Of a stretch of DNA of 42,862 nucleotides, positions 9,501-38,055 are shown piece after piece (position 1 is the stretch's first letter; each line of letters opens with the position of its first letter). The stretch comes from an uncultured bacterium (lineage in GTDB: Bacteria; Bacteroidota; Bacteroidia; Chitinophagales; CAIODY01). The stretch is taken from NCBI GenBank assembly GCA_903857255.1, contig CAIODY010000085.1, positions 1-42,862 on the forward strand, written 5' to 3'. The notes beneath the pieces were generated by a model that worked only from the letters and a program-made list of their open reading frames with translations, ran no database searches and was not told the origin of the DNA. The position numbers and the translations under genes were made by a program.

Positions 9501-12500
9501 TGTTGAAGTATCATTTTCGTTTACTACACCAACTACCGAACTGGTATAAGTAACCGCAAAAGGCGTTACTGGCAACAATCCTGACAAAATTATTGTGCCA
9601 TTATTTGCACCACAACTTGTTGGATTAGTTGAATTAAAACTGGTAATGGTTGGTGTTTGATTTACAGTAACTTTTACACAAGAATCAGCACTCACACAGC
9701 TATTTAAAGTTTGATGCACACAATAATTACCGCTATGCGTTAAAGCTACACCCAGAATTTGTGGATTTTGTTGAACACTTGTAAACCCATTTGGTCCAGT
9801 CCAATTGTATGTTGCTCCTGAATCTCCAACTGCCGATAACGTTAAGGTTCCGCCTGTGCAAATTGGATTAGATGCACTTGCCGCCACTTTTTTAGGTGCT
9901 GTAGGGTTAAGCAATGTGTCATTACCAAATGGTAAACTTGTACAACCATTTTGCGTAGCTGTAATATTATTGTAAATACCAGCACACAACCCTGTCAACG
10001 AAATAACTCCGTTTGTATCAGAATTTAATGTAGCCGATGTTAAGGTAACTGGTGCATTATAACTTACCGTAAAACTTTGCGATTTGATACCCATATTAAT
10101 CACCAATTTGCCATTGCAGACACCACATCCTGTTGGGTTTGTAGCCACAATTGATTTAATAATTGGGCGCTTATTCACCAAAATAGTAAATACCGAACTT
10201 GGGCTGGTACAACCATTTAATGTTTGTGTTACACTATAAGTACCGCTCATCGAATCAGTAGCATTGATTCTCGAAATGCTCGTCCCTGTTGAAGTGTAGC
10301 CATACGGTCCACTCCAATTATAAATTGAACCAACAACTCCGCTGGCAGTTAATGTTAATGTTGTACCACTACAAATTGGGCTCGAACCTGTGATACCTGG
10401 TGCTGCTGGTGGTGTTGGGTCAACCAAAATAACTGGCCCAACCGCAGTTGAATTACAATGTGCAGCACTCACAGAAATTGTATTGTATGTGCCAGCAGAT
10501 AAATTTGGAATTAATACTTGTCCGCCTGCATTACTGGTTATAAATGCAACTTGAAAGCCTGTAATAGACGAAACATAAGTAACCACATAAGTTACATTAG
10601 ATGATAAACCAGTTAAGGTTATCGAACCATTTGTACCACCGCAAGTAGTTGGGTTTGTACCCACTGTTGTTGAAATTACTGGTGTTGGATTAATGATAAC
10701 TGTATCGCCTGCATCACCACTTACACAACCATTTACAATTTGGTGAACATAGTAAACACCAGCATTGGCAATAGTTGCAGCCGTAATTACAGGATTTTGC
10801 AAAGTTGAATTAAAGCCATTTGGACCACTCCAAACATAACTTGCATTATTTGCACCAACGGCAAACAAGGTCAATTTATCACCCGAACACAGTGCGCTAT
10901 TGCTTGTCGCCACTGGTTTTCCTGGCGGGTCGGGTGTTGTTAATGTTACATTCGGAACTAAAGTTCCACAACCATTTAACGAAACCGAAATGTTGCTATA
11001 AGTGCCCACACACAAGTTCGGAATTGTTAATTGTCCGTTGGTATTGGTTGAAATTAAAGAAGTAAATGGACCGCTTGGACCACTATAATTTATCGTGTAT
11101 CCAACACTGGCTTGCAAACCACTAATGGTAATAGAACCATTACACAAGTTACATTTGGTTGGATTAAATCCAGTAACTGTAGTTGGCTGTGGTTGCGGAT
11201 TTACAGTGATTACATAAGTAGTTGTAAATGGTTGACATGGTCCCAATCCATCGGTATCATTTGTGGTAAATGCAATGGTTACAAAGTTTTGAATTTTAAC
11301 CGAAGTATCGGGTGTAAATGTAGTTACACAGCCACTTGCATTGCAATGAATAGTTGCTGTATCTAATTTTCCACTTCCCGAAACGATTGACCACAAACCT
11401 TTTGTAGCATTGATATAATTACAAATCAAGCTCACTGATTGATTTGAACAAGTAGTTGTTAAACCCGAAATGCTTGCTGTTGGAATATGTAAGCATGAAC
11501 AACTTACTACGAATGAGAATGGATTAGATGCACAACTCGAACCTGCCACTCGTGCTGTGGTGAAATGATTTCCCGAAGCCACATTGTTAAATACGTTGCT
11601 GTTTTGATAAGCTCCACCATCTAACGAAAACTCCATCGAGGCATTTGGTGTAACCGAAGCATTTACTGTTACACTTGCCAAATTAGCTGTACATGCGCCT
11701 TGTGAAACACTATTGATAACTGGCACACCAATGATATTGATGTTATCAGTAACCGTGGTGCTACATTGCGTTTTTTGGTTGGTTAATTTTACTTGTACTG
11801 TTGATGCACCTGTACCAGTGAAATTAAATCGTGAGTTGGTGTCGTTTGGCGTTACTGCCACACCCGAATTGCTACCCCAAGCAAAGCCACACGAATCGCA
11901 ATTCGTTAATGAACTAATCGTAAATGGATTTGAAATAGCACCATTACAAACTGGTGTAGGTCCACTCACCAAAGCATTTGGCGCAGTTGGGTCAACCAAA
12001 TTAAATGGTCCTAAAATGGTATTTGCTGGGCAACCAGATGAAGTTACCACAATATTTGAATAAGTACCCGAAGTTAAATTTCCAATAATTAAAATGCCGC
12101 CAACAGCTGTTGCGCTTGCATTTTGAAGTGCTGCATTTTTAGTGTATGAAATCGTGTAATTGCCATTTGGCACCACACCACTCAATTTAATGTATCCATC
12201 AGCACCTAAACAAGTGGTTGGGTTAAACGCTGCAACACTTGCAAATACTGGTGTTGTGGTTATTGTTAAATTGAACAATGCCGTATCAGGCGTACAAGGA
12301 CCAACACCATCTGGGTCATTGGTTACAAATCGAATTACGGCAACGCCCGATGCTGTTGCTTTTGGCGTAAACACAGTTTGGCAACCATTCGTTCCACAAT
12401 TTGTAACGCTGATGCTACCTTTTGCAGTATCCATCAATGTCCAATTGCCACTTGTTGAATTAGTAAATGAACCTGTTAAAGTTACAGGCGTATTGCTACA

Positions 12501-15500: not shown

Positions 15501-18500
15501 AGATTGTGTTCCTGTTGAATTAAATGTAAATAATGACGAATCGTTGTTTGGAGTTACCGCCAAACCGCCGCCACTGCTCCATACAAAGCTGCAACCGCTG
15601 CAATTTGATAATCCGCTGATTTTATAATATTGCGATGTTGTTGCGCCGTTGCAAACTGGCGAAGGACCAACCACAGTACCATTTGGAGGTGTTGGGTCGC
15701 TTAATGCAAATGTGCCAGCCAATGATGAACTACATCCCGATTTTGAAATAGAAATATTACCATAAGAACCAGCAGTTAAACCAGTGATGGTTAATGTAGT
15801 GCCAACTGTTGTAATAGTTGCCGTTTGCGGAACACTATTTTTGGTGTAAGAAACTAAATAAGTGCCAGCAGGTGTAACACCATTTATTCTGATACTTCCA
15901 TTGCTGCCCGAGCAAGTGGATGGATTAGTTAATGTAGCGGAAGTAAGTGTTGGCGTTGCATTTACAGTTACTGTAAAGAACGAAGTATCTGCATCACAAG
16001 GACCAGCACCATCAGGGTCATTCGATACAAATCGAATCACATTTACACCTGCAACTGCAGAACTAAATTGAGTTGTGCAACCACTTCCTGAACATGCTGA
16101 AACTGTGATTGAGCCACTACCGCTGGTTACAGCCCAAGTTCCCGATGAAGCATTGCTCAATGTTCCTGTTAAAGTAATTGGCGAATTAGTACATGTGGTG
16201 GTGCTTCCCGAAATATTGGCATTTGGTGGCAATGCACATGAGCAATTTACTGTAAAATTAAATGCCGATGAAACGCAGCTTGTGCCTACAACTCGTGCAT
16301 ACACGGTGTGTGCGCCGTTAGCAACTGATGCAAATGAATTATTGGATGACCATGCACCAGTAGTTGAATCTAATTGAAATTCCATCGCAGCTACTGGGCT
16401 TACTGCTGCATTCACAGTAATTGGCGCAGCAAAACCTACGCAAGCACCTTGTGTAATGCCGCTAATAGAAGGCACTCCAGACACACTCACTACTTTTGTG
16501 ATGATAGAAGTACATTGTGTAACACTGCTGGTTACTTGCACTTGAATAGTTAAATTACCAGTTGAATTAAATGTAAATGATGTTGGATTATTATTTGGTG
16601 ATGATGGCGTTCCATTTGTTGAACTCCAAACATATGAACAACCGCTGCAATTGCTCACCGTTGCTGAATAGAAGCCAGTTACAATGCCATTACAAGCATT
16701 TGACGAACCGCCAATTGTGCCGCTTGGCTTGGTTGGGTCACTAATTATAAACGGACCAGTTACTGGATTTGAAATACAACCATTGATTGAAATAACAAAG
16801 TTGTCGTAAGAACCTGCAACTAAATTCGGAATCGTAATACTTCCTGAAGATGCAGTGCCACTAACTGTTTGCGGATTTCCGTTAAATGTGTAAGTAATCG
16901 TGAAATTACCCGAAGCTGGTGTAATGCCCGATAATACAATGCTTCCATCCGAACCACCACAAGTAGATGTGTTATTTGGTGTAACAGTTGTAAACGCTGG
17001 CGGTGTTGGATTATTTAAAGTAATTGGTCCTTTCGATGCACTTGCACAGCCATTTAGCGTAGCCACAATATTGCTATAAGTGCCTGTGCATAAATTTGAA
17101 ACTGTAATTTGACCATTAACATTGCTTGTTATAAATGCTGATGCTGCGCCGCTTGGTCCAGTGTAGCTAATGGTATAACCTTGCGAAGCTAACAAACCAT
17201 TAATGGTAATTGAACCATTGCAACCGCCGCAAGTTGTAGGATTAGAGCCTGTTACAGTGGTAATTACTGGTTGCGGATTTACTACAATTGTATAAGTAGT
17301 TGATGCTGATGTACATGGTCCAAAGCCATCTGGGTCAAGCGTTGTGAAACCAATCGTTACAGTTCTTTGTGTGGTAATGCCTGTGGCAGGTGTGTAAGTG
17401 GTTGTGCAACCATTCGATGCACAAGCAGTTGTGCTCAATGAGCCACCACCGCTAATTACAGACCATGTTCCGCCGCTTACGTTGGTAAAATTACAAGTTA
17501 AAATAGCTGTCGAATTGCTACAAATAGTTGAATTATTGGCTGCAACGCTTGCTGTTGGCGGATTGGTACAAACGCAAACAATATTAAAGTTGAAAGCATT
17601 AGACGCACAAACTGTTCCCACCACTCTTGCATAAGCATTGTAAGTTCCATTTGCCAAGCTATTAAATACATTGCTCGATTGATAAGTAATTCCATCCAAC
17701 GAATATTCCAATGTTGCTGTTGGATTGATAGAAGCATTGATAGTTGCCGAAGCATTAAATCCTGTGCATGCACCTTGCGCCACACCATTGATAACTGGAA
17801 TTCCATCTACTAAAATAGTTTTGGTGATAGTGCTTGTACAATTTGTTACGCCATTTGTCATCACCACTTGCACCACTTGGTTGCCAGTTGTGTTAAATGT
17901 AAATTGAGTAGAATCGGCACTGGCTGCAAATGGCACACCGCCCAAGCTGCTCCAAGTATAGCTACAACTGTTGCAATTGGTAATGCTGCCTAAAATATAT
18001 TTTTGTGGGGTAATTGTTCCATTACAAGCCACCGCAGGACCAGTAATTACGCCACTTGGCGGCGTTGGGTCAACCAAAGTAATTGGTCCAGCCAATGGAT
18101 TTGAACCACAACCTGTTTGTGTGATTACAAAGTTAGCATACGAACCAGCTGTTAATCCTGTAATTATCAAAGTGCCCGATGATGCTACAAATGAACCCGA
18201 TTGTGGAATACTGTTTTTAGTATAAGTTACTGTGTAGCCACCGCTTGCAGGGCTAACCGCCAATGTAATTTTTCCATCATTGCCCGAGCATGTTGTTGGA
18301 TTAGAAGATGCACTAAATGCAACAGTTGGTGTTTGATTTACTACTAACGAATATTGAATGGTATCTTGCGAACATGGACCAGCACCATCTGGGTCGCTAG
18401 TGATGATTCTAATAACTTTTGTACCTGATGATGTTGGTGTATAAATAGTTGTACAACCGCTGCCAGTGCAGTTTGGCGCACTTAAAGTGCCACCGCCACT

Positions 18501-21500
18501 AACAATTGACCATGTAGCCGTTGCTGCATTGGTTAATGTAGCCGTTAATGTGGCTGTGCCATTGCTGCAAATAGGATTGTTGTTGGATGTAATAGAGGCC
18601 GATGCTGGTGTTGCACAATTACAATTTACTGTAAATGATGAACCTGCTGATGCACATGAAGTGCCCACAACTCTTGCTGTTACTGAATGGCTGCCATTTC
18701 CAACACCACTAAACACATTAGATGATTGATAAGCGCCACCATCTAAAGCATATTCTAAAGTAGCTAGCGGACTAACCGAAGCATTCACAGTAGCTGTGGT
18801 TGTAAATCCAACGCATGTACCTAAAGAAACGCTGTTCACTACTGGAACACCATTTACTGTTACATTTTGAGAAATTGTTGAAGAACAATTATTGCTCGAT
18901 GTAATAGTTACTTGTGCTGTTTGTGTGCCTGTTGATGTAAATGTAAATGTTGAAGTTGCAGCATTTGGTGTTGTTGCTGTTCCGTTTGATGAACTCCATA
19001 AATAAGAACCAGCCGTAAAATTGGTTAAACCAGTAATCGAATAAGCTGTTGTAACCACACCTTGACAAGCAGTTGATGGTCCCGAAACCGTTCCTGATGG
19101 TGGAGTTGGGTCAACTACTGTAAATGGACCAGCAGCAGTATTTGAGGTACAACCATTTAGTGTAACTACAATATTAGTATAAACTCCAGCTGTTAAATTT
19201 GGAATAGTTAAGTTCGTTCCAACCGCTGTTAATGTAGCCGTTTGAGGCACTCCATTTTTATTGTAGTTTACTGTAAATGTAGCATTGGCAGGTGTTACAC
19301 CAGCCACAATTACATAACCATCATTGCCTCCGCAAGTTGATGTATTGTGAGCAGTTGCGCTTGTTATCGTTGGAGTTTGATTTACTGTTATTGTTTTGGT
19401 AGTGGTAAATGGCAAACATGGACCAACACCATCGGGGTCGTTGGTTACAAATTGAATAGTTGCAGTGCCCGAAGTTGCGCCAGCAGTATAAGTTGTAGTG
19501 CAACCAGTTCCGCTACAAACAGTTGGCGAAACCGAGCCACCACCTGTTACACTCCAAGTTCCCGAAGTTGCGTTGGTGATGGTTGATGTTAATGTAATAG
19601 AAGAATTAGTACAAACCACCGCAGGACCAGTAATGGTAGCCGATGGATTATTTACGCAATGACAATTTACTGTAAATGAATAAGGACTTGAAGCGCAAGT
19701 TGTGCCTACAACCCTAACTGTTACTGTATGTGAACCATCAGCCACTGCTGTGAAAATGTTGGATGATTGGTAAGTGCCGCCATCTACTGAATATTCTAAT
19801 GCAGCTGATGGGCTTACAGAAGCATTTACCGTAACATCAGCTGCTGTGCCTGTACAAGCACTTTGCGAAACTGTTGATACTACTGGAATTCCATTTACCG
19901 TTACATTGTAAGATAAATTTGTAGTACAATTTGTAGTTGAATTGGTAATTGCCAAATTCACAGTTTGAGCTCCTAAGCTGCTGAATGTAAATGTTGAAGT
20001 AGTTGCATTTGCTGTTGTAGCCGAGCCACCAGTGCTACTCCATACATAATTACATGATGAGCAATTCAATAAATTATTCACAGAATAAGCCGTTGAAACT
20101 GCGCCATTACAAACTGAAGTTGGTCCTGTAATCGAACCTGATGGCGGAGTTGGGTCAACCAAAATAAATGAACCAAAAGCATTGGAAGGACAACCATTTT
20201 GCGTAATTACAAAATTAGCATAAGTGCCTGCCGTTAATCCTGAAATAACCAACGAGCCTGCGTTGGCAGTAGCTGTTGCACTTTGTGGCGAACCATTTTT
20301 AGTGTAAGAAATATTATAAGAACCAGTTGCTGGCACAACACCAGTTAAAGTTACAGAACCATTTGCACCGCTACAAGTTGTTGGGTTCGAGCCGCTACCA
20401 CCACCAATTGTAGGCGTTGGTGTAACATTAATAGTAAATATTGCTGTGTCGGGAATACAAGGACCAACACCATCTGGGTCATCAGTAATTATTCTAATTG
20501 TTTTAATGCCCGAAGTGCCTGCTGTTGGTGTATAAACTGTTGTGCAGCCACTTCCGCTACATGCAGTTGTACTCAATGAACCGCCACCACTCACAATCGC
20601 CCAAGTGCCAGTTGATGCATTATTAATGGTAGAAGTTAAAGTTACTGGTGTGTTGCTACAAGTTGCGCTATTACCCGAAATGCTTGCTGCTGGCGGTGCC
20701 GAACATGCGCAAGAAACCGAGAATGTAAATGTTGATGAAGTACAAGTAGTATTTAATACTTTAGCAGTAACGGTATGTGAACCATTTACAACTGCCAAGA
20801 AAACATTTGAATTTTGATAAGTGCCTCCATCTAAAGAATATTGTAAAGTAGCGGTTGGCGTTACACTGGCATTAATGGTTACATCAGCCGCATTGCCAAC
20901 GCAAGATGCTTGTGTAGCATTTGAAATAACAGGAATTCCATTTACCAAGAATGAACCATTGATAGTGCTTGAACAAGTTGTTGTAGTATTAGTAATGGTA
21001 ACTGAAACGGTTTGATTGCCTGATGAATTAAATGTGAAGCCTGTTGTTGCTGATGTTGGCGTAGCTGCTGTGCCACCTGTTGAACTCCATGAATAAGAAC
21101 ATGAAGAACAATTTAGCAAATTAGAAATACTAAATGCAGAAGTGGCAACACTTTGGCAAATACCTGTTGGTCCGCTAACTGTTCCTGTTGGAGCAGATGG
21201 GTCAGTAATTGTAAATGGTCCAGCCAATGTAGCCGATATACAACCATTTTGAGAAATTGTAAAGTTAGAATAAGTACCAGCCGTTAATCCTGAAATCACT
21301 AAATTAGTTCCGCTTGCTGTTGCCGTTGTACTTTGGCTTCCAACACTTGCTTTATTATATGTAACTGTAAATGTGCCACCAGCAGGTGTTACACCAGTTA
21401 AAGTAATCGAACCATTCGAGCCACCGCAAGTAGTTGTGTTAGCTACGGTTGCTCCAGTTACAGTTGGAATTGGATTTACTGTAATAGATTTTGTAGTTGT

Positions 21501-24500
21501 TGCAGCCACACAAGGACCAACGCCATCTGGGTCATTTGTAGTAATTGATATCACTGCTGTTCCTGCTGCGCCCGAAGTATATGTAGTTGTGCAACCATTT
21601 CCAGAACAAACTGTTGGGCTTAATGAGCCACCACCGCTTGTTACACTCCATGTACCACTTGTTGCATTAGCGATAGTTGAATTTAAAATAATTGTAGAGC
21701 CATTTGCACAAACCGAACTTGCTCCACCAATAGAAACTGTTGGAACTGCACCGCAAGTACAATTTACATTAAATGAAAATGCTGTTGAAGCACAAGTTGT
21801 ACCCACAACTCTTGCTGTAACTGTATGTGCGCCAGTTGGAACAGCCGATAAAACAGTTGACGATTGATATGTTCCGCCATCTAAAGAGTATTCTAAAGTA
21901 GCAGTTGGATTAACTGCTGCGTTGACTGTAACATCAGCCGCAGTGCCTACGCAGCTTGCTACTGAAACGCCCGATACAGTCGGAATACCAGTAACTGTAA
22001 CTGTTTTTGTTAATGTTGATGAACAATTAGATGAGTTGGTAATTACAACCGAAGCCGTTTGTGCGCCACCTTGTGTAAATGTAATATTTGTAGTGGCTGC
22101 TGTAGGTGTTGATGCTGAGCCACCATTAGAAGCTGACCAAGCATAAGTACAACTGCTGCAATTTGTTAAACCTGTGATAGAGTATGCTCCCAATGAAGCA
22201 TTTGCGCAACCAGTTGATGGTCCTGCAATTGTTCCAGTTGGTCCACTTGGGTCAGTTAAAACTATTGATGTATTGTTTTGTGATGAATTACAACCACCTT
22301 GTGCAATCACAAATGCAGTATAAATTCCAGCTCCCAAACCACTAATGGTAATTACACCACCAGTTGCCGTTGTTGTCAATGATTGATTAGCACCATTTTT
22401 TGTATAAGTTACCGTGTAAGAACCAGTTGATGGTGAAACACCTGAAATAGTAATTGAACCATTCGCTCCACCGCAAGTAGATGGGTTATTTCCACTTACT
22501 GAAGTAAAGGTAGGTGTTGGCAATACAGTTAACGCCTGTGATTTACTACCTGTACAACCTGTTGCAACATCTCTTGCTGTTAATGAATAAGTTACATTGG
22601 CAGAAATAGTTGGTGTAATTGTGCTTGTTGTTAAACCACCCGGACTCCATGACCATGTAAAATTATTTGAACCACCCGAAGCACTTCCTGTTAAAGTTAC
22701 AGCAGTTCCAGAACAAACATTCGTAGTGCTTGGTGTAATATTAACTGTAATAGCTGGGCAATTGAACAACACTAAATAATCTTCAATTTCACCATTGGCT
22801 TGGTCTTTTGTTGCAGATGGACGATTAGTAACAGAAGTATCTGTTGTTAATCGCAATCTTAAAAATGAAGTATCAGATGCTGATGTAATCGTAAAGCCCG
22901 ACCATGTTAAAGTAGCCGATGTAGCGCCATTAGGCACAGTAGCTGATGCCGATTCGCCAGCATCAAAAATTCCATTTCCATTAAAATCAATAAAGCCAAT
23001 CAACTTGGCAGAAACGCCAGTTGTATTTTTTACAGTGATGGATGGCGTAGTATAAGTTGTTGCCAAACGACTGATTGGAATTGATGTTCCGGCAATTCCA
23101 TCTTCATCATCAATGCCTGTGTTATCATCTACATTCGCCAACTTGCCTGGGTTTATAGGATGTTGGTCTTCGCCATCTATTAATGCCCCTATCAAAATAC
23201 TATTCACAATAAAACTTCTAGGTGTGCCATAAGATTTTGGCGCATCACCATATTCAAAATTCAACAACGATTTAATGTTCCATTCATACAATATATGCGA
23301 ATCATTGCTGGTATTTGATTTCACTGTATCAAATAATGGTGCAGTTATCCCTTGTGAAACACCACCAGAGCCTAATCCAATAAATTTAGGGCTAAAAGTA
23401 GATTGGCTATGCGATGTAGTTCCTACTATAATTGATGAATCGCCCATTACTTTAAACTGATTCGACCCCCTCGGAACACCTGTTGCACCTAAATAATCAT
23501 TTCCATTCCCACCAATATAAGTTGAGAAATAATTGGTTTTTAAATCAGCACCAATGGTAAAGAAAATCATGTCCCAACCACCAGCGTTGGCTGCGCTATA
23601 AAAAGAAGTTGGTCCAGTAGTTACATTTTTTGTTGGAAAATTAGTTGATTGCGATTCGCCATACATCATGGCTGCATAAGGCGTATAGGCTCTTAATGAA
23701 TTGCCCACATCATCACCACTGCCACCAATATAAGTTGCTTGCCATGTTCCAGAACCTCCTGTTCGTGGCACTTTACCAATAATCGCATCCCTCACACCGC
23801 CGAATGTATTTTGAAAACGAGTAGTTGCACTAGCACCTGTACCCAATGGAAAATCGCTACTGCATGAATATCCTGTGATTAAAAGTGTATCAAAAAATCC
23901 GATAGAAATTCCATAAAAAGATTCAGCAGCACCCAACGTAGAACCTGTACCAGCAGTAGAACCACCAATTTTACTTAACATACTAAATGCGCCACCAGCA
24001 GCCGGAATTACACCCACTACGCCATCTAAATCAGTTCCAATACTGCCTGAAGCCGCAGCATTAGTGATGTTCGGAAAAGTTGCACTGGCTGATTCACCTG
24101 TGAATGCAACACCACCATCGCTAAATACTTGCAAATCGTGCAATTCTTCATTGCCACTTCCTCCTACATAAGTTCCATAAGCCAACGTCTTGAAATTAGT
24201 AAATTTGGCAATATACATATCCCAACCACCACCATAAGTGCTTTGTGCTGCATTACCTATAAAACCAGAAGCAGTAATTGCACCTTCAACAGTTGCTCCT
24301 ACCACAAAATCTGTATTATTTAAAGCAACAAGCGTATAAACAGCTTCGTTGGAATTATAATCTGAATTGCCCGAAAGTATAGTTCCATTAACACTTCCAA
24401 CCAGTGTATAATATTTTAACGAACTGATAGTTGAAGCATCAAACACTGCCACAAAACCATCATAAGTGCCTCCTTGAAAAGCTGACAAAAGCGGAGTAGT

Positions 24501-25607
24501 TGTTGGTGAAGCACTAATGGCTGCGCCCACCGAACCACCTACAAACAAAGTGCTTTTATCTGGCGAAAGGCTTATCGCATAACCATTGTCATTAGCTGAA
24601 GTACCAAAATACGTTTGTGCCAAAATTACTTTCCCATCATATCTTACTTTGTAAATTATTACATCTCTGTTTCCACCAATAAATGTTTGATTATAACCAG
24701 TGGCACCACTTGTGATATAACCTGATGATAAACCAATATTTGTTTTACCAACGCAATAAATATTTTTTTGATTGTCATAATCTACAGCAAATAAATATTC
24801 ATCAAACACAGTACCACTGGTAATTTTATCGTCAAAATAAATTCCCCAATCCAACACAGGGTCAACAATCAAAGGAAGTGTGTTATCAATTTTATCTTTT
24901 GTAGAAAATTTCAAATGATTATTTTCCAAATTGAAAGCAAATTTTTTGCTTACTTTTTTTCCATTTTGAATTTGATACGATTCTGGTATTTTATAACTCA
25001 AATCAGTAAATTCCAAACCAATTTTCATACTTCCATCTTCCAAAATTTTTACATTATTCACACCCACATATTCCACATCTACTTTGCTGAAATCAGCTCC
25101 TGCTGCTACTATCCAATCAAATTCTAAATCACCTTTTGGTTGACTATAAATACGCAAATCAATACCAGCGTAAATTCCTTTCAACGTCAGTTCATCATAA
25201 CTCAATACATTAGTTTGATGCGTTGAAGCATCGCCCACCATATAATTTCTTACCGTTTCAAAAGCCTTTCCTTTTTCAACTGTAAAATTTCGATTGTGGT
25301 TATGAAAACGCATCGCCCATTTTTGAATAGATTTTGCACCATCTTTTCGCAAATCCAAATCTTCCATTTTATCTGTAATGAAAGTTATTTCATCGCGGCG
25401 AATGGCAGTTTGCCCATAAGTTGAAATACCTGCGAACAAAATGTCGCCCTCTTTCCACTGACCTTTGTTTTCAATAAATTGAACACTTTTTGCAGTTTGT
25501 TTCAGCAAATCTTTTGTAAGCTGCAAATCAGTAGGTTTTTGAGCAGTTGCCTGAAATGCAATGCCCATAAGCATCGAACAAACGAATGCGGTAAAAATTC
25601 TTTTCAT
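570..25607 (-). CDS. Giant SprB-like cell-surface adhesin, multi-repeat, T9SS type B C-terminal sorting domain
   Basis: An uninterrupted frame of about 8,345 codons. I chose the ATG at 25607 because it begins a signal peptide (MKRIFTAFVCSMLMGIAFQ..ATAQ); an in-frame ATG at 25676 would add 23 residues in front of it. Domains, in approximate residues: signal 1-23; DUF7948-like 40-255 (FIENKGQW); SBBP beta-propeller repeats about 305-740 (TYFGTSANDNGYA, TYIGGSGDDVGN); GEVED domain about 785-950 (YGDAPKSYG, GFIDFNGNGIFD); Cys-rich Ig/PKD/SprB-type repeats 950-5570; about 23 cadherin-like/Big_17 modules 5570-7815 (NDxDPDGN, GTVTYTPNPGFxGTD); PKD-like domains 7815-8060; two more modules; C-terminal domain about 8254-8345 (FPNGFSPNGDGTNDYY, FNRWGNEVY, DGTYYY), the T9SS type B signature. 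The product should be exported by Sec and T9SS and displayed on the surface for adhesion or gliding. It is longer than F. johnsoniae SprB (about 6,500 residues). The ligand is unknown. A porP/sprF gene follows. Confidence 0.93.
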   Translation of the reverse strand: MKRIFTAFVCSMLMGIAFQATAQKPTDLQLTKDLLKQTAKSVQFIENKGQWKEGDILFAGISTYGQTAIRRDEITFITDKMEDLDLRKDGAKSIQKWAMRFHNHNRNFTVEKGKAFETVRNYMVGDASTHQTNVLSYDELTLKGIYAGIDLRIYSQPKGDLEFDWIVAAGADFSKVDVEYVGVNNVKILEDGSMKIGLEFTDLSYKIPESYQIQNGKKVSKKFAFNLENNHLKFSTKDKIDNTLPLIVDPVLDWGIYFDDKITSGTVFDEYLFAVDYDNQKNIYCVGKTNIGLSSGYITSGATGYNQTFIGGNRDVIIYKVRYDGKVILAQTYFGTSANDNGYAISLSPDKSTLFVGGSVGAAISASPTTTPLLSAFQGGTYDGFVAVFDASTISSLKYYTLVGSVNGTILSGNSDYNSNEAVYTLVALNNTDFVVGATVEGAITASGFIGNAAQSTYGGGWDMYIAKFTNFKTLAYGTYVGGSGNEELHDLQVFSDGGVAFTGESASATFPNITNAAASGSIGTDLDGVVGVIPAAGGAFSMLSKIGGSTAGTGSTLGAAESFYGISIGFFDTLLITGYSCSSDFPLGTGASATTRFQNTFGGVRDAIIGKVPRTGGSGTWQATYIGGSGDDVGNSLRAYTPYAAMMYGESQSTNFPTKNVTTGPTSFYSAANAGGWDMIFFTIGADLKTNYFSTYIGGNGNDYLGATGVPRGSNQFKVMGDSSIIVGTTSHSQSTFSPKFIGLGSGGVSQGITAPLFDTVKSNTSNDSHILYEWNIKSLLNFEYGDAPKSYGTPRSFIVNSILIGALIDGEDQHPINPGKLANVDDNTGIDDEDGIAGTSIPISRLATTYTTPSITVKNTTGVSAKLIGFIDFNGNGIFDAGESASATVPNGATSATLTWSGFTITSASDTSFLRLRLTTDTSVTNRPSATKDQANGEIEDYLVLFNCPAITVNITPSTTNVCSGTAVTLTGSASGGSNNFTWSWSPGGLTTSTITPTISANVTYSLTARDVATGCTGSKSQALTVLPTPTFTSVSGNNPSTCGGANGSITISGVSPSTGSYTVTYTKNGANQSLTTTATGGVITISGLGAGIYTAFVIAQGGCNSSQNNTSIVLTDPSGPTGTIAGPSTGCANASLGAYSITGLTNCSSCTYAWSASNGGSASTPTAATTNITFTQGGAQTASVVITNSSNCSSTLTKTVTVTGIPTVSGVSVASCVGTAADVTVNAAVNPTATLEYSLDGGTYQSSTVLSAVPTGAHTVTARVVGTTCASTAFSFNVNCTCGAVPTVSIGGASSVCANGSTIILNSTIANATSGTWSVTSGGGSLSPTVCSGNGCTTTYTSGAAGTAVISITTNDPDGVGPCVAATTTKSITVNPIPTVTGATVANTTTCGGSNGSITLTGVTPAGGTFTVTYNKASVGSQSTTATASGTNLVISGLTAGTYSNFTISQNGCISATLAGPFTITDPSAPTGTVSGPTGICQSVATSAFSISNLLNCSSCSYSWSSTGGTAATPTSATTGFTFNSSGNQTVSVTITNTTTTCSSTINGSFLVNGIPVISNATQASCVGNAADVTINASVTPTATLQYSLDGGTYQNSNVFLAVVNGSHTVTAKVLNTTCTSSTFTFSVSCACSAPPAASISGNSATCSNTPVTLTSTINNASTGTWAIVSGGGSLSTTACSGSGCTTVYTPTAGTSGIKTIRIITDDPDGVGPCIPDTAIFTINVTPTPTIGGGSGSNPTTCSGANGSVTLTGVVPATGSYNISYTKNGSPQSATATANAGSLVISGLTAGTYANFVITQNGCPSNAFGSFILVDPTPPSGSITGPTSVCNGAVSTAYSVNNLLNCSSCNYVWSSTGGSATTANATTSTFTFSSLGAQTVNLAITNSTTNCTTNLSYNVTVNGIPVVSTVSQSACTGTAADVTVNASVSPSAALEYSVDGGTYQSSNIFTAVADGSHTVTVRVVGTTCASSPYSFTVNCHCVNNPSATITGPAVVCTNSSITLTSTITNATSGTWSVTGGGSVSPTVCSGTGCTTTYTAGATSGTATIQFVTNDPDGVGPCLPFTTTKTITVNQTPTITSATAHNTSTCGGNDGYVIVAGVTPANATFTVNYNKNGVPQTATLTAVGTNLTIPNLTAGVYTNIVVTLNGCTSNTAAGPFTVVDPTPPSGTVSGPSTACQGVVTTAYSITGLTNFTAGSYLWSSSNGTATTPNAATSTFTFTSTGTQTAQVTITSSNNCSSTISQNVTVNGVPVVNSVSLGTCVGFTTTATVNASVSPLATLEYALDGGAYQSSNVFSGVGNGSHSVTARVVGTSCASAGSSFTVNCNCATPASASITSNNNPICSNGTATLTATLTNAATATWSIVSGGGTLSAPNCTGSGCTTIYTPTSSGTKVIRIITSDPDGAGPCSQDTIQYSLVVNQTPTVAFSASSNPTTCSGNDGKITLAVSPASGGYTVTYTKNSIPQSGSFVASSGTLIITGLTAGSYANFVITQTGCGSNPLAGPITLVDPTPPSGVITGPAVACNGTITPQKYILGSITNCNSCSYTWSSLGGVPFAASADSTQFTFNTTGNQVVQVVMTNGVTNCTSTITKTILVDGIPVINGVAQGACTGFNASATINASINPTATLEYSLDGITYQSSNVFNSLANGTYNAYARVVGTVCASNAFNFNIVCVCTNPPTASVAANNSTICSNSTAILTCNFTNVSGGTWSVISGGGSLSTTACASNGCTTTYTPATGITTQRTVTIGFTTLDPDGFGPCTSASTTYTIVVNPQPVITTVTGSNPTTCGGCNGSITINGLLASQGYTISYTGPSGAASAFITSNVNGQITVSNLCTGTYSNIVATLNGCASASKGPITLNNPTPPAFTTVTPNNTSTCGGSDGSIVLSGITPASGNFTITYTFNGNPQTVSGTASSGSITIPNLVAGSYDNFVISINGCISNPVTGPFIISDPTKPSGTIGGSSNACNGIVTGFYSATVSNCSGCSYVWSSTNGTPSSPNNNPTSFTFNSTGNLTIQVQVTSSVTQCTSIITKVVSVSGVPSISGITQGACVGFAAPITVNAAVSPVAAMEFQLDSTTGAWSSNNSFASVANGAHTVYARVVGTSCVSSAFNFTVNCSCALPPNANISGSTTTCTNSPITLTGTLSNASSGTWAVTSGSGSITVSACSGSGCTTQFSSAVAGVNVIRFVSNDPDGAGPCDADTSFFTVTVNATPTLTSATLTNPSTCSGSNGSIRINGVTPAGTYLVSYTKNSVPQTATITTVGTTLTITGLTAGSYGNISISKSGCSSSLAGTFALSDPTPPNGTVVGPSPVCNGATTSQYYKISGLSNCSGCSFVWSSGGGLAVTPNNDSSLFTFNSTGTQSVQVQITSGTTTCVNTISQSVTVNGIPVVNGVNQGACIGFTSSATINASVSPNATLEYSVDGGAYQSSNIFPGLANGNHYATARVVGTTCASNPFTFTLTCACSNPPSATITSNNTTCQYQQVILTASFVNATSGTWSIVSGGGSLSTTTCSGGGCATVYTPATNITSPINAVIQITTNDPDGVGPCTPSSTVQNITIYPQPKIDSVKGSNPTSCGGCNGSFTIYGLNASTGYTVTFTSPSGSVSTLISSNTNGQITVTNLCVGNYSNIAVTLNGCTSNAFNAITLSNPPAPTIASNTSTNPTTCLGQDGTITFNVSPNGTYTITYTKNGTPQTFVATATAGTLTISNLTAGTYANFNITNYGCTSATLAGPITLSDPAIPTGTVSGPTPVCNGATTPTPYSVTSLANCSTCGYSWSATGGTPTAPNAASTTINFTGLGAQTVGVVLNNTTTLCSNSITKPVVVKGIPVVNNVSLGACVGFTTTATVNANVAPNDTMLYAIDGGAFQLSNVFTNVGNGTHSAQVQIKGTTCTSAPFTFTISCACLLPPAVSINGNNTTCANQPITLVANLTNADSGTWAISSGGGTISPTHCGSNGCTSVFTPNPAITSTQNTIITFTTNDNDGAGPCVPTTSNFVVTTNPIPVIAGTTFSNPTSCGSCDGKITLTGLNPSQAYTVSYVGSGGAASATINSNVIGNVVITGLCAGTYTNITASQNGCSSSPISTVTLSNPTPPTIGGDSLVNTTACGGSNGKLILIGITPSSGNFIFTYTKNGAPQTTTGFVTGGYFEITGLTAGTYNNVAISIHNCISNTLVGPFVISDPAPPVAVISGPSSACFGVLNGAYYDTTTANYPTGIYAWSSAGGSPSNLNSPITNFTFTTGGNQTINLTIKNSVTNCTSTANKIVKVYGIPVINSVVQGSCTGFTANVTVNASVTPVAIMEYAVDGGSFQLSNVFTNLNVGNHYVVARDTGTICTSTPPFTFAVSCSCTNPPSANVTGNGTTCSNTPVTLTGSFTNSTSGNWTLMDTAKGSISVTNCGTNGCQTVFTPKATASGVAVIRFVTNDPDGVGPCTPDTALFNLTITTTPVFASVAAFNPTTCLGADGYIKLSGVVPNGNYTISYTKNAALQNASATAVGGILIIGNLTSGTYSNIVVTSSGCPANTILGPFNLVDPTAPNALVSGPTPVCNGAISNPFTISSLTNCDSCGFAWGSNSGVAVTPNDTNSRFNFTGTGASTVQVKLTNQKTQCSTTVTDNINIIGVPVINSVSQGACTANLASVTVNASVTPNASMEFSLDGGAYQNSNVFNNVASGNHFTTARVAGSSCASNPFSFVVSCSCLHIPTASISGLTTTCSNQSVSLICNYINATKGLWSIVSGSGKLDTATIHCNASGCVTTFTPDTSVKIQNFVTIAFTTNDTDGLGPCQPFTTTYVITVNPQPQPTTVTGFNPTKCNLCNGSITISGLQASVGYTINYSGPSGPFTSLISTNTNGQLTIPNLCVGTYSNISVSLNGCGTLVPNVTLTTPDPPGKPVATSNSALCSGDKLTLFAVGANNASYVWSGPNGFNSTLQNPVITAATIANAGVYYVHQIVNGCVSGDAGDTVIINPTPVISTTVGTNPTTCGGTNGSITLTGLSSNVTYVVTYVSSITGFQVAFITSNAGGQVLIPNLSAGTYNTISVSAAHCNSTAVGPVILVDPTPPAAPGITGSSPICSGTTLTLTASGVVGSIYNWSGPYGYTSTGTSISRINATDSMSGTYSVTQTLNGCTSPSSVFTILVNKRPIIKSIVATNPTGCGVCNGKLVINMGIKSQSFTVSYNAPVTLTSATLNSDTNGVISLTGLCAGIYNNITATQNGCTSLPFGNDTLLNPTAPKKVAASASNPICTGGTLTLSAVGDSGATYNWTGPNGFTSVQQNPQILGVALTHSGNYCVHQTLNSCVSADSCVKVTVNQTPTITSFNSTNPTSCGANNGTIILSGLLPVTPFAVTYTSSVVGVVNENDTSTTGGQIIIKGLKAGIYNNISVNSKGCTSASVGSLSLFDPNPPAIPSVTGTTGVCQRNTISLTASGQTGATYNWTGPNGYTAIGSSIHRANADSSMAGTYAVTQTLNGCTSAPTVLNVNINPVPTISLSASADTVCLGQTTQLVALYDFQTIGINWFRKPSNTPIASTLLPVTVTPQAGDNYYHVVATNIFGCLNRDTIRIHRNLGPTANPDYVATCEGVNLNIKELNNDTDPEHDSWSVTITRMPKLGVAYVNPNQSLSYIPDLYKDGLDTIVYQACNAQCLGQCDTSIILINVCHVNHPPVADNITVSTLTNTPVAVNVGGATGDPDGDKLNFYYGTPSVVGTTVHITGIGTIDVKPPFGFVGNITIPYSVCDITTVNPEPLCDTATITIVVDSNFNHHNLPPVAVDDYISIKKNTSGTLPILANDNDPSGLPLTPTIIVSTKHGTSVLNANGTVTYTPANGFVGLDTFTYKVCDNGTPTLCDTAIGVIFVTNDTTLKPQPPLAVDDIVKTPENVPVTVAVKNNDSDPHGKILGQPTIIDSTIHGTLVLNPNGTITYTPSPYYRGTDTFTYKICNTDGLCDTAQGIITVVPVNNPPVAVNDTTTIFENSSNNIVTILANDTDPDGDPLKVSAINQPVNGTVVLNTNGTISYTPNPGFFGTDVLTYTVCDVTIINPQPLCSQANVYVHVLPVNNPPVANTDVSTTSLNTPIRINVLSNDNDPDNNPLTTSAINTAPTHGSVVINSDGTITYTPANNFSGTDSFQYQVCDVTTVNPHPLCATAWDYVTVSGNGSGCTTAPVANDDYTSTSENVAIAVNVLTNDNPNTATIHRASNGAHGTTIVSGASIIYTPATGYVGNDKFLYSIQTGTDCFDTAIVFVTINTSIVNHPPIANPDNAQTGKNQPVVIDVQLNDKDPDGNQITTSIPSGVQQPLHGTITVNLNGTVKYTPNNNYTGRDSFQYVICDNGIPSLCDTTMVNVLVTSSVHNDAPVANTDDTTTTSTQAVVIKVLHNDTDPNSDQIHTTGVTVQPQHGTATLNANGTITYVPNGIYYGIDSFQYQICDTSIYAPHVLCSMAWDHITLINQTVNHPPVAVNDTVLTPEGIPTIIAVMNNDSDPDGNPIHVTNVGTPVNGTVVLNPNGTVTYTPNPGFFGTDVFTYTICDNGTPSLCDQAVVYVNVAPVNNPPVANADVAHTSVNTTVKIPVQGNDIDPDNNPLKTNAIATSPVHGVATINADGTISYLPNAGYAGTDSFKYQVCDVTIVNPHPLCSSAWVYVTIDGASCSIAPIADDDYSITNAGTADTIHVKANDAPSAALIVNTSKPAHGAALINGSNIIYTPTGNYVGTDEFVYTISTGVTCFDTAIVFITINPSLVNHPPIANNDNVKTSVNTTVIVDVQLNDKDPDGNKLTTSIPSGVVPASHGTPIVNANGTVTYVPNSGFTGRDSFQYVVCDNGIPSLCDTAYVFVLINPTLHNDAPIANTDDTTTTTKQSVVIAVLHNDTDPNSDPIHTTGVTIQPQHGTATANADGTITYTPNGSYIGLDSFQYQICDTSVYTPHILCSTAWDHINILVTKQKLPPVAVNDTATTQVNTAVTVTPLHNDYDPDGDSIHITQVSQPTNGTIVLNPNGTVTYTPNPGFTGTDVYTYTVCDFGTPVMCAVATDYIVVTPVNHPPVAQNDLASTVAGAPVIVDVEHNDSDPDNNPIKTTSILTAPVNGTAIIITGNTVKYTPNVGFTGLDSFLYQICDTSVYAPHVLCARAWAYVTVNACASAPIAVNDSVTMNTSSININVQANDIANGNTLVTTQATTPLHGTIIINANGTIKYTPASGYSGDDQFSYTVCASTGLTSCCASATVYISVAPVNHPPVANKDITSTQKNVTQLIAVLQNDNDPDNNPIHVTSTTTPIHGSIVLNANGTINYTPNFNFTGLDSFHYTICDTSVLLPHTLCSTTVVYILVSDSTHNNPPKANPDHATTTMNNSVTVTQIANDVDPDGNPIHTTSIGSPTKGTAVLNANGTITYTPNAGFIGTDSLPYTICDTSILMPHVLCSQGWVYITVNPAAPIEARPDRATTPEDNSVSIPVLGNDATNGGAVNVTISNNPTNGTAVVNPNGTVTYTPNHNFNGVDTLIYQLCYASSSVCDTAIVFVNVTPVNDKPIAVNDTTNTAPNTPKVIAVLANDHDPDLTNNFPEGNILTPSLPSGLNQPLHGIASVNSNGTITYTPNTGFLGLDSFQYKICDNGTPSLCDTAWVFVNVAISSAPIANTDYDTTLENILLVTNNINLNDVANSSNMTNTIISNPTHGSAILNSNGTISYTPNHNYYGNDTLNYAYCTTGASSCDTAMVIITVIHVNQPIVAVNDTAYGYFTNPITTQNVTLNDTDPDGPSKIVSTPVGLATVQNGTLVNNNNATFTWVRNPGFFGTGIVDSFQYVVCDGGTPNYCDTAWVFIVVPPCNFHVDAGQYQSVCLGNSVTIGGSPTTALGGSGNFTYNWSSSNNDVIPGVANPTVTPQVNTTYTVVVTDNVSGCIAVDTVSIMAKPIPTLSFTSLDTVYCSGAGNVALSALPAGGIFTGAGVQLIGGVYYFNPQIVQTDTPLTITYIYNDNGCIYSVGSSVIVHSSPIADAGVDVTICPVQGTNFTQLQAATGGSSYHWSPSTGLNNPNIQNPIAAPLVTTTYILTVRLNNCIAYDTVIVTVCTDTLPHVIANADNASVFGNSTNNIIHVLSNDYSSIDLSNHASVSITTTPNHGAASVVNNQVVYTPAKGYIGRDTLIYTLCDTLGTQAYCDTALVVITIRPKANNDSPKDSVHCDGFKPPYDVTANDSIGTGNHVSVRIITAPLHGTATVLNLGISYQPNEGYTGNDQITYELTVNGLLDTATLSFYVNCPKSPCDFPNGFSPNGDGTNDYYVINCPDANPTISEITIFNRWGNEVYHTASGYKNNWDGNYKGQPLPDGTYYYIFKYHDGVNSDKTGFIVIQR
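2160..8895 (-). repeat. Tandem cadherin-like/Big_17-type modules (about 23 copies of roughly 95 residues)
   Basis: Inside the giant gene, modules of about 285-300 bp follow each other in frame. Each reads roughly PPVAVNDT, then a ...VLxNDxDPDGN... loop, then HGTxxxNxNGTxxYTPNxGFxGxDSFxYxxCD, then LCDTAxVxVxV. The acidic NDxDPDGN loop resembles calcium-binding loops of extracellular cadherin-like repeats; that role is inferred. Two related modules reappear after the PKD-like interruption, at about 850-1430. Module lengths vary by a few codons and copies are diverged, which suggests an old array with one more recent block duplication. Confidence 0.85.
4773..7718 (-). repeat. Duplicated five-module block inside the adhesin (two copies of about 1.47 kb)
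   Basis: Modules starting at 7718 and at 6236 (PPVAVNDT in each) head two consecutive five-module blocks, 7718-6237 and 6236-4773. Corresponding landmarks match at constant spacing. GTATCAAAGCA occurs at 6883 and 5419 and ATGTGGTCCC at 6265 and 4801, both exactly 1464 bases (488 codons) apart. GTTCCATCTG occurs at 7261 and 5791, 1470 apart. The order of long and short modules is also kept, including the short module with the unusual CFDTAIVF ending. This points to an in-frame duplication of the whole block. Confidence 0.8.
8930..10940 (-). repeat. Alternating Ig/PKD-like and SprB-like repeats in the adhesin
   Basis: This stretch alternates two module types in frame. The first contains YNWTGPNGYTS...GTYxVxQTLNGCTS and looks Ig/PKD-like. 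The second contains NPTTCGGTNGSITLTGL...YTSS...GQxxIxxLxAGTYNxISV and resembles the SprB repeat. There are four of the first kind with SprB-like modules between them. It joins the ten-unit array (higher coordinates) to the cadherin-like array (lower coordinates). Confidence 0.75.
10945..22520 (-). repeat. Higher-order array of ten units of about 1050 or 1325 bp in the adhesin
   Basis: Ten copies of a four-part unit occur: (a) CTGxxADVTVNASVxPxATLEYSLDGG, (b) SCxCxxPPxAxIxG...DPDGVGPC, (c) an SprB-like module with TCxGxNGSITLTGV...LTAGTYxN, (d) a PKD-like module with NCSSCxYxWSS. The DNA segment encoding the GIPVI motif starts at 21982, 20932, 19885, 18844, 17797, 16471, 15424, 14101, 12775 and 11722. 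The spacings are 1050, 1047, 1041, 1047, 1326, 1047, 1323, 1326 and 1053, all multiples of three. The long spacings carry an extra SprB-like module of about 92 codons (TSCGGCNGSITINGL type). Confidence 0.85.
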
Positions 25608-25714
25608 TGTTAAAGTAAAAGTTTTTAGGTTGGGTGTAGATTTCTTTGCAGAATTAGTGAGTAGTGTTTTATCCATATAGCGAAAAATATGTTCTATTCT
25701 TTTTTTATGAATGG

Positions 25715-35583: not shown

Positions 35584-36729
35584 ATGATAATTGTAATGCT
35601 GTTGGCAATTGCGCTAACATTTTTTTATGGTGGCTTAATGCTCAATTATCTAATGGGTTGGAAACGATTGCCCAGTAAGACTTTGCAAAATATTACACCA
35701 ACCACTTCAGTCAGCATTATTGTTCCTGCTCGAAATGAAGCGACCAATATCAGCCAATTATTGAACGATATTTTGCAACAAAATTATCCGAGTAATTTAC
35801 TCGAAATTATTCTGGTTGATGACCATTCAAGCGATAACACTTCGGCAGTTGCTGATTCAATTTTATCAAAACAAAACAGAATTGCTTATCGAATTTTGCA
35901 TTTAGCTGATGCAGGAAATATTGAAAATGCTTACAAGAAAAAAGCGATTGAATTTGCCATTCAAAATGCTAATGGTAATTTTGTAATTACTACCGACGCT
36001 GATTGCAGCATGACTGCAAACTGGCTACACAGCTTGGTTTCACACTATGAAATCACAAATCATAAAATGATTGCGGCACCCGTGAAATATTATTTTGATG
36101 ATTCTTTTTTTCAAAAATTTCAAGCGTTAGATTTTATTGGCTTAATTGGAATTACAGGCGCATCTATTCAGCAACAATTCTACAACATGTGTAATGGCGC
36201 AAATTTGTGTTACGAACGAAAAGCTTTTTTTGAGGTGAATGGTTTTAAAGGCAATGACAATATCAGCAGTGGTGATGATATGTTTTTAATGCATAAAATT
36301 GCCGAAAAATTTCCACAACAGATTTCTTTTTTAAAAAGCAATGATGCTTGCGTTATCACTCACCCAAAAGAAAATGTGAAAGAGTTTCTGCATCAGCGTT
36401 TGCGGTGGACCAGCAAAAGCACATCGTATGCTGATAAACGAATCACAGCGATTTTAGTGATGGCGTATTTATTCAATTGCTCGATTGTTATAAATTTTTT
36501 ATTGGGCTTTTTCAATCATCAATTTTTCGTTGTTGCGTTGGTGCAATTCGTTATAAAATCAATCACCGAATTTTTATTTTTAAAAACTATCACTTCGTTT
36601 TTCAATCAAAAAAAACTGATGAAGATTTTTTTACCAGCACAAGTGGTGCATATATTTTATGTCATTGCAGTAGGCTTGGCTGGTCAGTTTGGGAGTTTTG
36701 ATTGGAAAGGAAGAAATTTGAAAAAATGA
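35584..36729 (+). CDS. Membrane-bound family 2 glycosyltransferase
   Basis: 381 residues. An N-terminal membrane segment (about 3-25) is followed by a GT-A fold: IIVPARNEA (45-53), EIILVDDHSSDN with Asp79/Asp80, TTDADCS with the DxD-type Asp138/Asp140, GDDMF, and QRLRW (271-275), the Q-x-x-R-W motif of processive and membrane GT2 enzymes. Two or three further membrane segments follow, about 285-370. It transfers a sugar from a nucleotide donor to a lipid or polysaccharide acceptor at the inner membrane. Donor and acceptor cannot be told. It stands alone between the ALDH and dihydroorotase-like genes, with no other envelope-sugar gene except the acyltransferase about 4 kb away. Confidence 0.88.
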   Translation: MIIVMLLAIALTFFYGGLMLNYLMGWKRLPSKTLQNITPTTSVSIIVPARNEATNISQLLNDILQQNYPSNLLEIILVDDHSSDNTSAVADSILSKQNRIAYRILHLADAGNIENAYKKKAIEFAIQNANGNFVITTDADCSMTANWLHSLVSHYEITNHKMIAAPVKYYFDDSFFQKFQALDFIGLIGITGASIQQQFYNMCNGANLCYERKAFFEVNGFKGNDNISSGDDMFLMHKIAEKFPQQISFLKSNDACVITHPKENVKEFLHQRLRWTSKSTSYADKRITAILVMAYLFNCSIVINFLLGFFNHQFFVVALVQFVIKSITEFLFLKTITSFFNQKKLMKIFLPAQVVHIFYVIAVGLAGQFGSFDWKGRNLKK

Positions 36730-36789: not shown

Positions 36790-38055
36790 ATGAATTTGCT
36801 TATCAAACAAGCCCAAATTATTGACCCTGCTTCAAAATTCAACAATCAGGTAAAAGATATTTTAATTGAAAACGGGCAAGTGAAAAAGATTGACGACGAA
36901 ATCGTTGCTAAAAATGCGGAAGTATTTGAAGCGGAAAATTTACACATTGCACCTGGTTTTTTTGATATTGGCACACATACATGCGACCCTGGTTTTGAAT
37001 TCAGAGAAGATATTGCAACAGCTTCAAAGGCTGCATTGGCTGGTGGTTTCACTGGCTTGGCAGTTTTACCCAACAACAATCCGGTGGCAGATAATAAATC
37101 GGCGATTGAATATATTTTGCAGCAAGGAAAAAATAATTTAGTCGAAATTTTTCCCTTGGGTTCTATTTCACCAAAAGCAAAAGGTGAAACTTTAGCCGAG
37201 TTGTATGACATGCATCAAAACGGTGCTGTAGGCTTTACCGATGGATTAAATGCGATGCAACATTCGGGCGTTTTGTTAAGAGCACTGCGCTATGTTTTGC
37301 CATTTGATGGTTTGATTCTGCAACAACCTAATGATGAAAAATTAAGTGAACATGGTGTGATGAATGAAAGCGAAGCTGCTGTGAAATTGGGCATGTTCAG
37401 CATTCCGCAAATAGCCGAAGCTGCCATGGTTCAACGCGATTTGTTTTTATGCGAATACACCAATTCACGAATTCATTTCTTCAATATCACTACCGAACAA
37501 TCACTGGATTTATTAAAAAATGCAAAAGCAAAAGCGATAAAAGTTACGGCTGGCATCAGCCCGATGTATTTATTGTTGGATGATTCGATGCTGGAAGATT
37601 TTAACACCAATTTGAAATTGATGCCGCCACTTCGTTCAAAATCGGAACAAGAAATTTTGAAAAAAGCGATTAAAGAAAATACGTTGGATGTAATTTGTAG
37701 CTGGCATCAACCACGAGATACCGAAGAAAAACAAGTTGAATTTGACCATGCATTATTTGGTGCAATCAATTTGCAAACCTGCTTCGCAGCCTTGAATACA
37801 GCGATGCACAACGAAATCAGTTTGCATCAAATGATTAATTTGATGAGTATTAATCCGAGAAAAATTTTGAAACTTAATGTGCCAACTGTGGCGGAAAATC
37901 AAACTGCTAATTTCACTTTGTTTAATCCTTCGGCTGAATTTATTTTTGAAGAAAAAAACATTTTATCTAAATCAAAAAATTCACCTTTTATCGGCATGAA
38001 ATTGAAAGGAAAAATTTTGGGTGTTATTCATCAACAACAATTTCATAAAAATTAA
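36790..38055 (+). CDS. Dihydroorotase-like protein lacking most metal ligands (probable non-catalytic paralogue)
   Basis: 421 residues, the length of class I dihydroorotase, with the family framework intact: GFFDIGTHTCDPG, ALAGGFTGLAVLPNNNP, GAVGFTDGL, GVMNES, LGMFSIPQIAE, KVTAGISPMYLLL, NLKLMPPLRS. Catalytic positions are changed. The HxH metal motif is Gly61-Thr-His63; the next conserved Arg is Cys65; the His of HCED is Gln179; the His of HVST is Asn232; and the Asp of TDHAPH is Trp305. Only His63 and Asp151 remain of the usual metal set. It is therefore unlikely to cyclise carbamoyl-aspartate. Inactive dihydroorotase homologues in other bacteria act as structural partners of aspartate transcarbamoylase, and Bacteroidota commonly carry such a second copy. 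No other pyrimidine gene is nearby. Automatic annotation would probably name it pyrC. Confidence 0.85.
   Translation: MNLLIKQAQIIDPASKFNNQVKDILIENGQVKKIDDEIVAKNAEVFEAENLHIAPGFFDIGTHTCDPGFEFREDIATASKAALAGGFTGLAVLPNNNPVADNKSAIEYILQQGKNNLVEIFPLGSISPKAKGETLAELYDMHQNGAVGFTDGLNAMQHSGVLLRALRYVLPFDGLILQQPNDEKLSEHGVMNESEAAVKLGMFSIPQIAEAAMVQRDLFLCEYTNSRIHFFNITTEQSLDLLKNAKAKAIKVTAGISPMYLLLDDSMLEDFNTNLKLMPPLRSKSEQEILKKAIKENTLDVICSWHQPRDTEEKQVEFDHALFGAINLQTCFAALNTAMHNEISLHQMINLMSINPRKILKLNVPTVAENQTANFTLFNPSAEFIFEEKNILSKSKNSPFIGMKLKGKILGVIHQQQFHKN

Follow-up and report, generated by a model that had tools for sequence, protein, structure and literature searches.

A widespread, catalytically dead dihydroorotase of Bacteroidia as a probable subunit of aspartate transcarbamoylase

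Pairing of aspartate transcarbamoylase (ATCase) with a dihydroorotase (DHO), either active or inactive, is a known type of association (PMC4581275, in the part available). In Aquifex aeolicus, DHO is inactive alone and becomes ordered and active only together with ATCase, and a double mutant of both beta-site histidines is still active (PMC3880350, in excerpt). In Pseudomonas aeruginosa, the partner is a pseudo-dihydroorotase (pDHO) that has no activity of its own, and ATCase deprived of it is an inactive monomer; the two proteins form a 6:6 dodecamer (PMC7053772, also in excerpt).

A probable further protein of this kind is described here from an uncultured bacterium of the Chitinophagales (GenBank assembly GCA_903857255.1). 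The window, i.e., the whole stretch of DNA that was analysed, comprises the 42,862 nucleotides of contig CAIODY010000085.1. The gene order around pDHO in the window is an aldehyde dehydrogenase gene, a GT2 gene, pDHO and a TolC-like gene, and more than half of the window is occupied by a single open reading frame of 8368 amino acids on the minus strand (570..25676). The features referred to below are the following:

35584..36729, + strand: GT2-family glycosyltransferase gene, 60 bp upstream of pDHO, a neighbour that is probably not part of the system
36790..38055, + strand: pDHO gene, ATG start, 421 amino acids, type-I DHO fold that has lost its metal centre
36970..36984, + strand: former HxHxR motif, now G61-T-H63-T-C65 (alignment of 65 pDHOs versus 49 intact DHOs)
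37240..37242, + strand: D151, retained, equivalent to A. aeolicus D153 (alignment)
37324..37326, + strand: Q179, in place of A. aeolicus His180 (alignment with 3d6n_A and intact DHOs)
37483..37485, + strand: N232, in place of A. aeolicus His232 (alignment with 3d6n_A and intact DHOs)
37702..37716, + strand: former DHAPH motif, now W305-H306-Q307-P308-R309, with H306 and P308 kept and D305, A307 and H309 lost

A dismantled active site in a conserved fold

The best match of the 421-residue product in the PDB is the A. aeolicus DHO (3d6n_A, E = 3.8e-82). Its score against TIGR00857 (314.7 bits over nearly the whole length, cut-off 279.05) would give it the name dihydroorotase, just as a previous reading of the sequence alone had expected of annotation pipelines, and one public orthologue record bears that name. 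The ligand positions were defined in A. aeolicus numbering (His61, His63, Asp153, His180, His232 and Asp305; PMC3880350, in the part available) and were read against 3d6n_A and 49 intact DHOs from the same phylum. At these positions the window protein has G61, H63, D151, Q179, N232 and W305, which bears out the earlier claim that only His63 and Asp151 remain. The alpha-site set His61/His63/Asp153/Asp305 is incomplete (G61, H63, D151 and W305). In addition, R65 and H309, both invariant across the 49 intact DHOs, have been replaced by C65 and R309; these two residues play a role in substrate binding. Because the Aquifex beta-site double mutant remains active, the telling losses are those of alpha-site H61 and D305. 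These residue comparisons confirm a DHO-like protein whose metal site has been dismantled.

Chance or an assembly error appears unlikely, as the same six residues are found in two congeneric genomes (L033, 81% identity, and L034, 74%). In a three-way comparison of the window gene with L033 and L034, dN was 0.12-0.20 and dS was near saturation (1.1-1.7), and as judged from these rates the pDHO gene is under purifying selection. A local pseudogene was ruled out by the low dN relative to dS, together with the mostly stop-free reading frames of the relatives.

The AlphaFold2 model of pDHO (mean pLDDT 87.6, pTM 0.89) has the two-domain amidohydrolase/DHO fold, in agreement with the earlier view that the fold is kept. 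By E-value and Z, the top structural match among those listed is the ATCase-bound Aquifex DHO (3d6n_A/4bjh_A; TM 0.90 and Z 50.8 over 411-413 residues), with other type-I DHOs following closely (TM 0.91 for B. anthracis 4yiw, Z 49.3 for T. thermophilus 2z00). This ranking of the predicted model may lend weak support to an ATCase partnership. Fungal pDHO structures were not among the best 50 structural matches listed, which has no bearing either way. Moreover, conserved pDHO residues are over-represented where the model is uncertain (15/45, p = 0.013). Such stretches would fit loops that become ordered upon ATCase binding, a point of little weight, with residue 181 of loop A being the only one tied to the available text of PMC3880350.

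The window genome (G000; 2.97 Mb, 97% complete) also encodes a second DHO on contig C67. This protein of 457 amino acids has intact ligand motifs and a score of 679 bits against NCBIfam PRK09236 (cut-off 535), and it is the active-type enzyme whose presence elsewhere in the genome the sequence-only reading had proposed to look for; a genome lacking any other DHO, which that reading had named as grounds for refutation, is therefore not the case here. The same reading had called the dead gene a paralogue, which needs correction: the gene belongs to a set of orthologues distributed across the class and is no local paralogue of the organism's PyrC. The ATCase catalytic chain (PyrB) is encoded on contig C70 and scores above the PRK00856 cut-off; among solved structures, the closest to it are 6pnz_A, followed by Aquifex 3d6n_B, which is compatible with a DHO-ATCase pairing and not decisive. 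PyrI was not found in this genome at E<=1e-5. This regulatory chain of E. coli-type ATCase is smaller than pDHO and unrelated to it.

A family of dead dihydroorotases across the class

The pDHO gene was detected in 52 of 60 genomes (the window genome and 59 relatives that range from the same genus to the same order), and the pDHO profile matched 64 of the 73 same-class genomes among 296 sampled from the phylum. Profile scoring in this larger sample covered six first-look candidates per genome, on which the absences in family f24 rest. The class was taken to be Bacteroidia from named relatives, namely a Chitinophagales record at 81% identity, Flavobacteriaceae and Rufibacter. The full ligand set is missing in all 52 relatives (three of them fragments) and in 63 of the 64 class-sample matches, the exception (G126) being an intact DHO directly behind pyrB. 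With overlaps counted once, 107 class genomes carry the dead form, three as judged from fragments only, and none keeps the six ligands. Alignment A1 was built without the fragments L051 and L055 and without a match that has one internal stop (G055), although the G055 match does enter the subsequent counts of ligands. L055 is also missing from the entropy set, and an archaeal match at 27% identity (L027) from all later counts.

Variability was analysed in an entropy set of 65 pDHOs, compiled before the last class reads (including G100). Alignment of homologues, which had been suggested as a check on whether the substitutions are fixed, revealed that they differ from family to family, with 44 different six-residue sets among the 65 aligned proteins. 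The positions of H61, H63, H179, H232 and D305 (window numbering) fall in the 76th-97th percentile of variability in pDHOs and do not vary among the 49 intact DHOs. H61 is kept in 6% and H63 in 15% of the 65 pDHOs and R65 in none, all three being invariant in the intact enzymes, and D151 is Asp in 60 of the 65 (92%). Within the former DHAPH motif, H306 is kept in 65/65, P308 in 64/65 and A307 in 0/65. A total of 45 of 415 positions are conserved in pDHOs, including E193, K276, P279, R282, H306, P308, K314, E317, F318 and G324. The low dN relative to dS, and the contrast between hypervariable ligand positions and retained fold and loop residues, agree with the earlier proposal that selection acts on the protein in a role other than that of a DHO.

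Could the protein still work as a DHO, either by dispensing with metal or by binding it in a rearranged site? Activity has been attributed to a Zur-regulated PyrC paralogue that lacks conserved zinc residues (Brichta 2004, cited in the available part of PMC2770081). However, the alpha-site residues H61 and D305 are lost in the window protein, R65 and E255 are absent from 65/65 pDHOs (G100, outside this set and read later, has Arg at position 65), the replacement residues are unlike one another, and the genome also encodes a canonical DHO, all of which makes retained activity extremely improbable.

The pattern of variability also bears on a regulatory role, in which the emptied site would bind an effector (e.g., a nucleotide or carbamoyl aspartate) and signal to ATCase in PyrI's place. 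Such a role could explain why the distribution of pDHO is complementary to that of PyrI, and some residues do persist: D151 is found in 92%, N95 in 80% and H306 in 100% of the 65 pDHOs, and the site is fairly constant inside some families (SSDFTD or SSDYTD in many f25 genomes). On the other hand, five of the six former ligand positions are hypervariable across the clade, because of which no common effector site is seen, and nucleotide inhibition in P. aeruginosa is read as complex destabilisation, not allostery, in the available part of PMC7053772. This type of regulation is thus considered unlikely.

In the DHO tree (quick method, no bootstrap, midpoint root, without L055 and 24 near-copies), the dead proteins of the class form a single group (55/55 rows, SH-aLRT 100), separate from four alphaproteobacterial dead DHOs, L013 and G060. 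According to this tree, the class pDHO has an origin separate from that of the sampled alphaproteobacterial dead DHOs. The latter lie on megaplasmids (L258, L259, L260 and L262) that carry pyrB and a dead DHO, named dihydroorotase where annotated. L013 (Firmicutes bacterium ZCTH02-B6, 2549-3772) is a dead DHO with Arg and Asp at the HxH positions, located directly behind pyrB, and its place in the tree is apart from the other dead groups.

Gene linkage and co-inheritance with PyrB

Outside the class, 208 genomes match the profile, and the ligand set is intact in 49 of the 50 orthologues read there. The sole exception (L255, from G060 of the same phylum) is a dead DHO on a long branch. In other phyla or in 'bacterium' records, pyrB is upstream in 17 of 18 loci that had not been selected for linkage, the 18th starting at a contig end. 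Within the phylum, 19 of 19 regions around pyrB contain both pyrB and a DHO gene, which is no measure of linkage frequency because 16 were picked for a DHO listed close by and three on the pyrB place alone (G088, G151 and G292). Homology and gene order together place pDHO in the DHO lineage that is encoded beside pyrB in many other groups. In the class itself, no PyrB was found near pDHO in 17 regions containing the pDHO gene. In the window genome, the two genes are on different contigs (pDHO on C85 and pyrB on C70) and hence not adjacent, and in G242 they are 32 kb apart on the same contig, outside the region taken around pyrB. Dead and intact forms alike can lie away from pyrB: intact DHOs and pyrB are also apart in several families outside the class (e.g., G083, G062, G139 and G219). 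The lack of linkage may be the reason why this family has been overlooked.

A search of 80 genomes found PyrB with at least 58% identity to the window genome's own PyrB in 63 of the 64 pDHO carriers (three as partial matches). The 16 genomes without pDHO include three with such a PyrB, six with PyrB at 34-49% identity and seven with none. Among the 60 relatives, 51 have both genes, five neither, three PyrB only and one pDHO only (Fisher p = 6e-5); P values of this kind are too generous, because the genomes are not independent and represent about five or six events. By our own count, the independent swaps or co-losses (~5-6) are those in G282's order, G459, f24, G126, G218 and f12. When only the 40 relatives with at least 95% completeness are considered, 36 have both genes, four neither and none a single one. 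Native-type PyrB without pDHO is found in G011, G014 and G018 (75-93% complete), and pDHO without PyrB in G015. These cases are no refutation, because incompleteness alone predicts similar numbers (about 2.8 PyrB-only-type and 2.5 pDHO-only-type), none of them being explained singly. Moreover, the PyrBs of 22 pDHO genomes form a single clade (99/96), in a tree where the places of G126, G459, G382, G206 and G094 are unsure because of their long branches.

PyrI was found in none of the 59 relatives and in two of the 73 class genomes, both without pDHO, whereas 137 of the 149 genomes in G282's order have it. We take this order to be Bacteroidales, in view of the PyrI of a named control, Bacteroides ihuae. 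Among matches to the pDHO profile in this order (E<=1e-35), the only strong one is in G459, a genome without PyrI where an intact DHO lies 3.6 kb from pyrB; the PyrB of G459 groups with PyrI-linked PyrBs despite having an intact DHO as its neighbour. Matches in the remaining 25 genomes are weak (E 2e-36 to 1e-54), and 29 of 30 such places were read and resemble DHOs or amidohydrolases of other types. PyrB was searched in six of the 12 PyrI-less genomes of the order (G348, G369, G449, G459 and G485 with TIGR00670, and G357 with the window genome's own PyrB). In G485, whose PyrB is of the PyrI-linked type, no PyrI and no pDHO were found. Both partners are also absent from the six f24 genomes, and PyrB there is distant (39-42% identity to the window genome's own). 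A partnerless PyrB is possible in view of G485 and also f24.

Several further genomes lack pDHO in other contexts. G218 is without both pDHO and PyrB, and its congener G126 (L197) has a divergent-type pair of pyrB and intact DHO. The f12 genomes G016, G032, G044 and G056 are nearly complete (4.5-7.6 Mb) and have no pDHO and no match to the window genome's own PyrB at E<=1e-10; these organisms are possibly pyrimidine auxotrophs. Outside the class, G248 has PyrI and an intact DHO together; like G485 and f24, it speaks against a strict rule. Gene content and PyrB phylogeny indicate that, within the class, pDHO follows one PyrB lineage and is absent with PyrI, with a foreign PyrB, with an intact DHO partner or upon loss of PyrB.

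The genes around pDHO are partly recurrent as well. In 11 of 24 loci, the gene immediately upstream is BatA-like (named from a reading of its sequence), and DUF4199 and GT2 genes (names from the public record) are downstream in about as many. On a Rufibacter tibetensis plasmid (L257, NZ_CP012645.1, 12.5 kb), a dead DHO annotated as dihydroorotase (4001-5281) accompanies DUF4199 and GT2 genes. These surroundings, found even on a plasmid, would suit a moonlighting protein outside pyrimidine synthesis, linked for example to the neighbouring envelope/glycosyltransferase genes. But the BatA/DUF4199/GT2 row was not found around the window's pDHO, and pDHO is missing along with PyrB in all four f12 genomes and G218, as well as where PyrB belongs to another lineage; a moonlighting function is therefore regarded as quite improbable.

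Proposed role and comparison with known systems

Considering the comparative evidence and the analogy with characterized complexes, pDHO is likely to be a non-catalytic structural subunit of a class-A2-like ATCase. In the proposed arrangement, pDHO dimers would join two PyrB trimers into a dodecamer, as in the Aquifex and Pseudomonas complexes, and pDHO would make or stabilise the active ATCase holoenzyme. From the same analogy we infer physical binding of pDHO to PyrB, a 6:6 stoichiometry and a need of PyrB for pDHO. Of the two roles suggested by the sequence-only reading, scaffolding of ATCase is favoured by the comparative evidence, and nothing found supports a separate regulatory role. A more far-reaching version is rather doubtful: in most Bacteroidia outside Bacteroidales, ATCase, which catalyses the committed step of pyrimidine synthesis, would depend on an unlinked pseudo-enzyme of independent origin, whose emptied pocket, re-tuned per family, would be a lineage-specific effector site replacing PyrI.

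If the proposed subunit role is true, much of a large bacterial class would have an ATCase partnered by a pseudo-enzyme that is named dihydroorotase in databases, a naming that would mislead metabolic models and auxotrophy predictions. It would also indicate a protein-protein contact that is specific to this group of bacteria. Furthermore, intact DHO, dead DHO, PyrI and no partner would form a natural series for understanding how an enzyme subunit becomes a scaffold and is then replaced. No report on the class pDHO family was found among the matches listed in the open-access literature, a scope outside which most subscription papers fall.

A close likeness is to the Pseudomonas ATCase-pDHO complex (class A2), which also contains an inactive DHO homologue, there required for ATCase activity (PMC7053772, in excerpt). 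The class A2 features present here are the missing metal ligands, a separate intact DHO and the lack of PyrI in the genome; the one absent is adjacency to pyrB, which is usual in the known cases and not part of the biochemical definition. Thus, the pDHO gene of the window genome differs from the Pseudomonas one in not being beside pyrB; Pseudomonas is absent from the DHO tree, and binding to PyrB is here a prediction. The alphaproteobacterial dead DHOs (Sinorhizobium meliloti pSymB, Ruegeria, Azospirillum and Methylobacterium) have also lost the ligand set (4/4 read) and are called dihydroorotase in both annotated records, but they have pyrB directly upstream or within 0.7 kb and form a distinct clade (SH-aLRT 100).

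The Aquifex DHO-ATCase dodecamer (3d6n, 4bjh) resembles the present system in providing the top structural match of the pDHO model, whereas its DHO retains the ligands of the alpha site and works as an enzyme within the complex. Fungal Ura2, a protein that contains ATCase, likewise has a pseudo-DHO domain devoid of zinc ligands (PMC7053772, in the part available), but this is part of a fused protein, and the likeness noted is one of description. PyrI, whose distribution in the class is complementary to that of pDHO, was used as a marker only. What differs in comparison with these systems is an origin apart from the sampled alphaproteobacterial dead DHOs, the lack of linkage to pyrB, the wide spread within one class, and the replacement by PyrI, a foreign PyrB or a pyrB-DHO operon.
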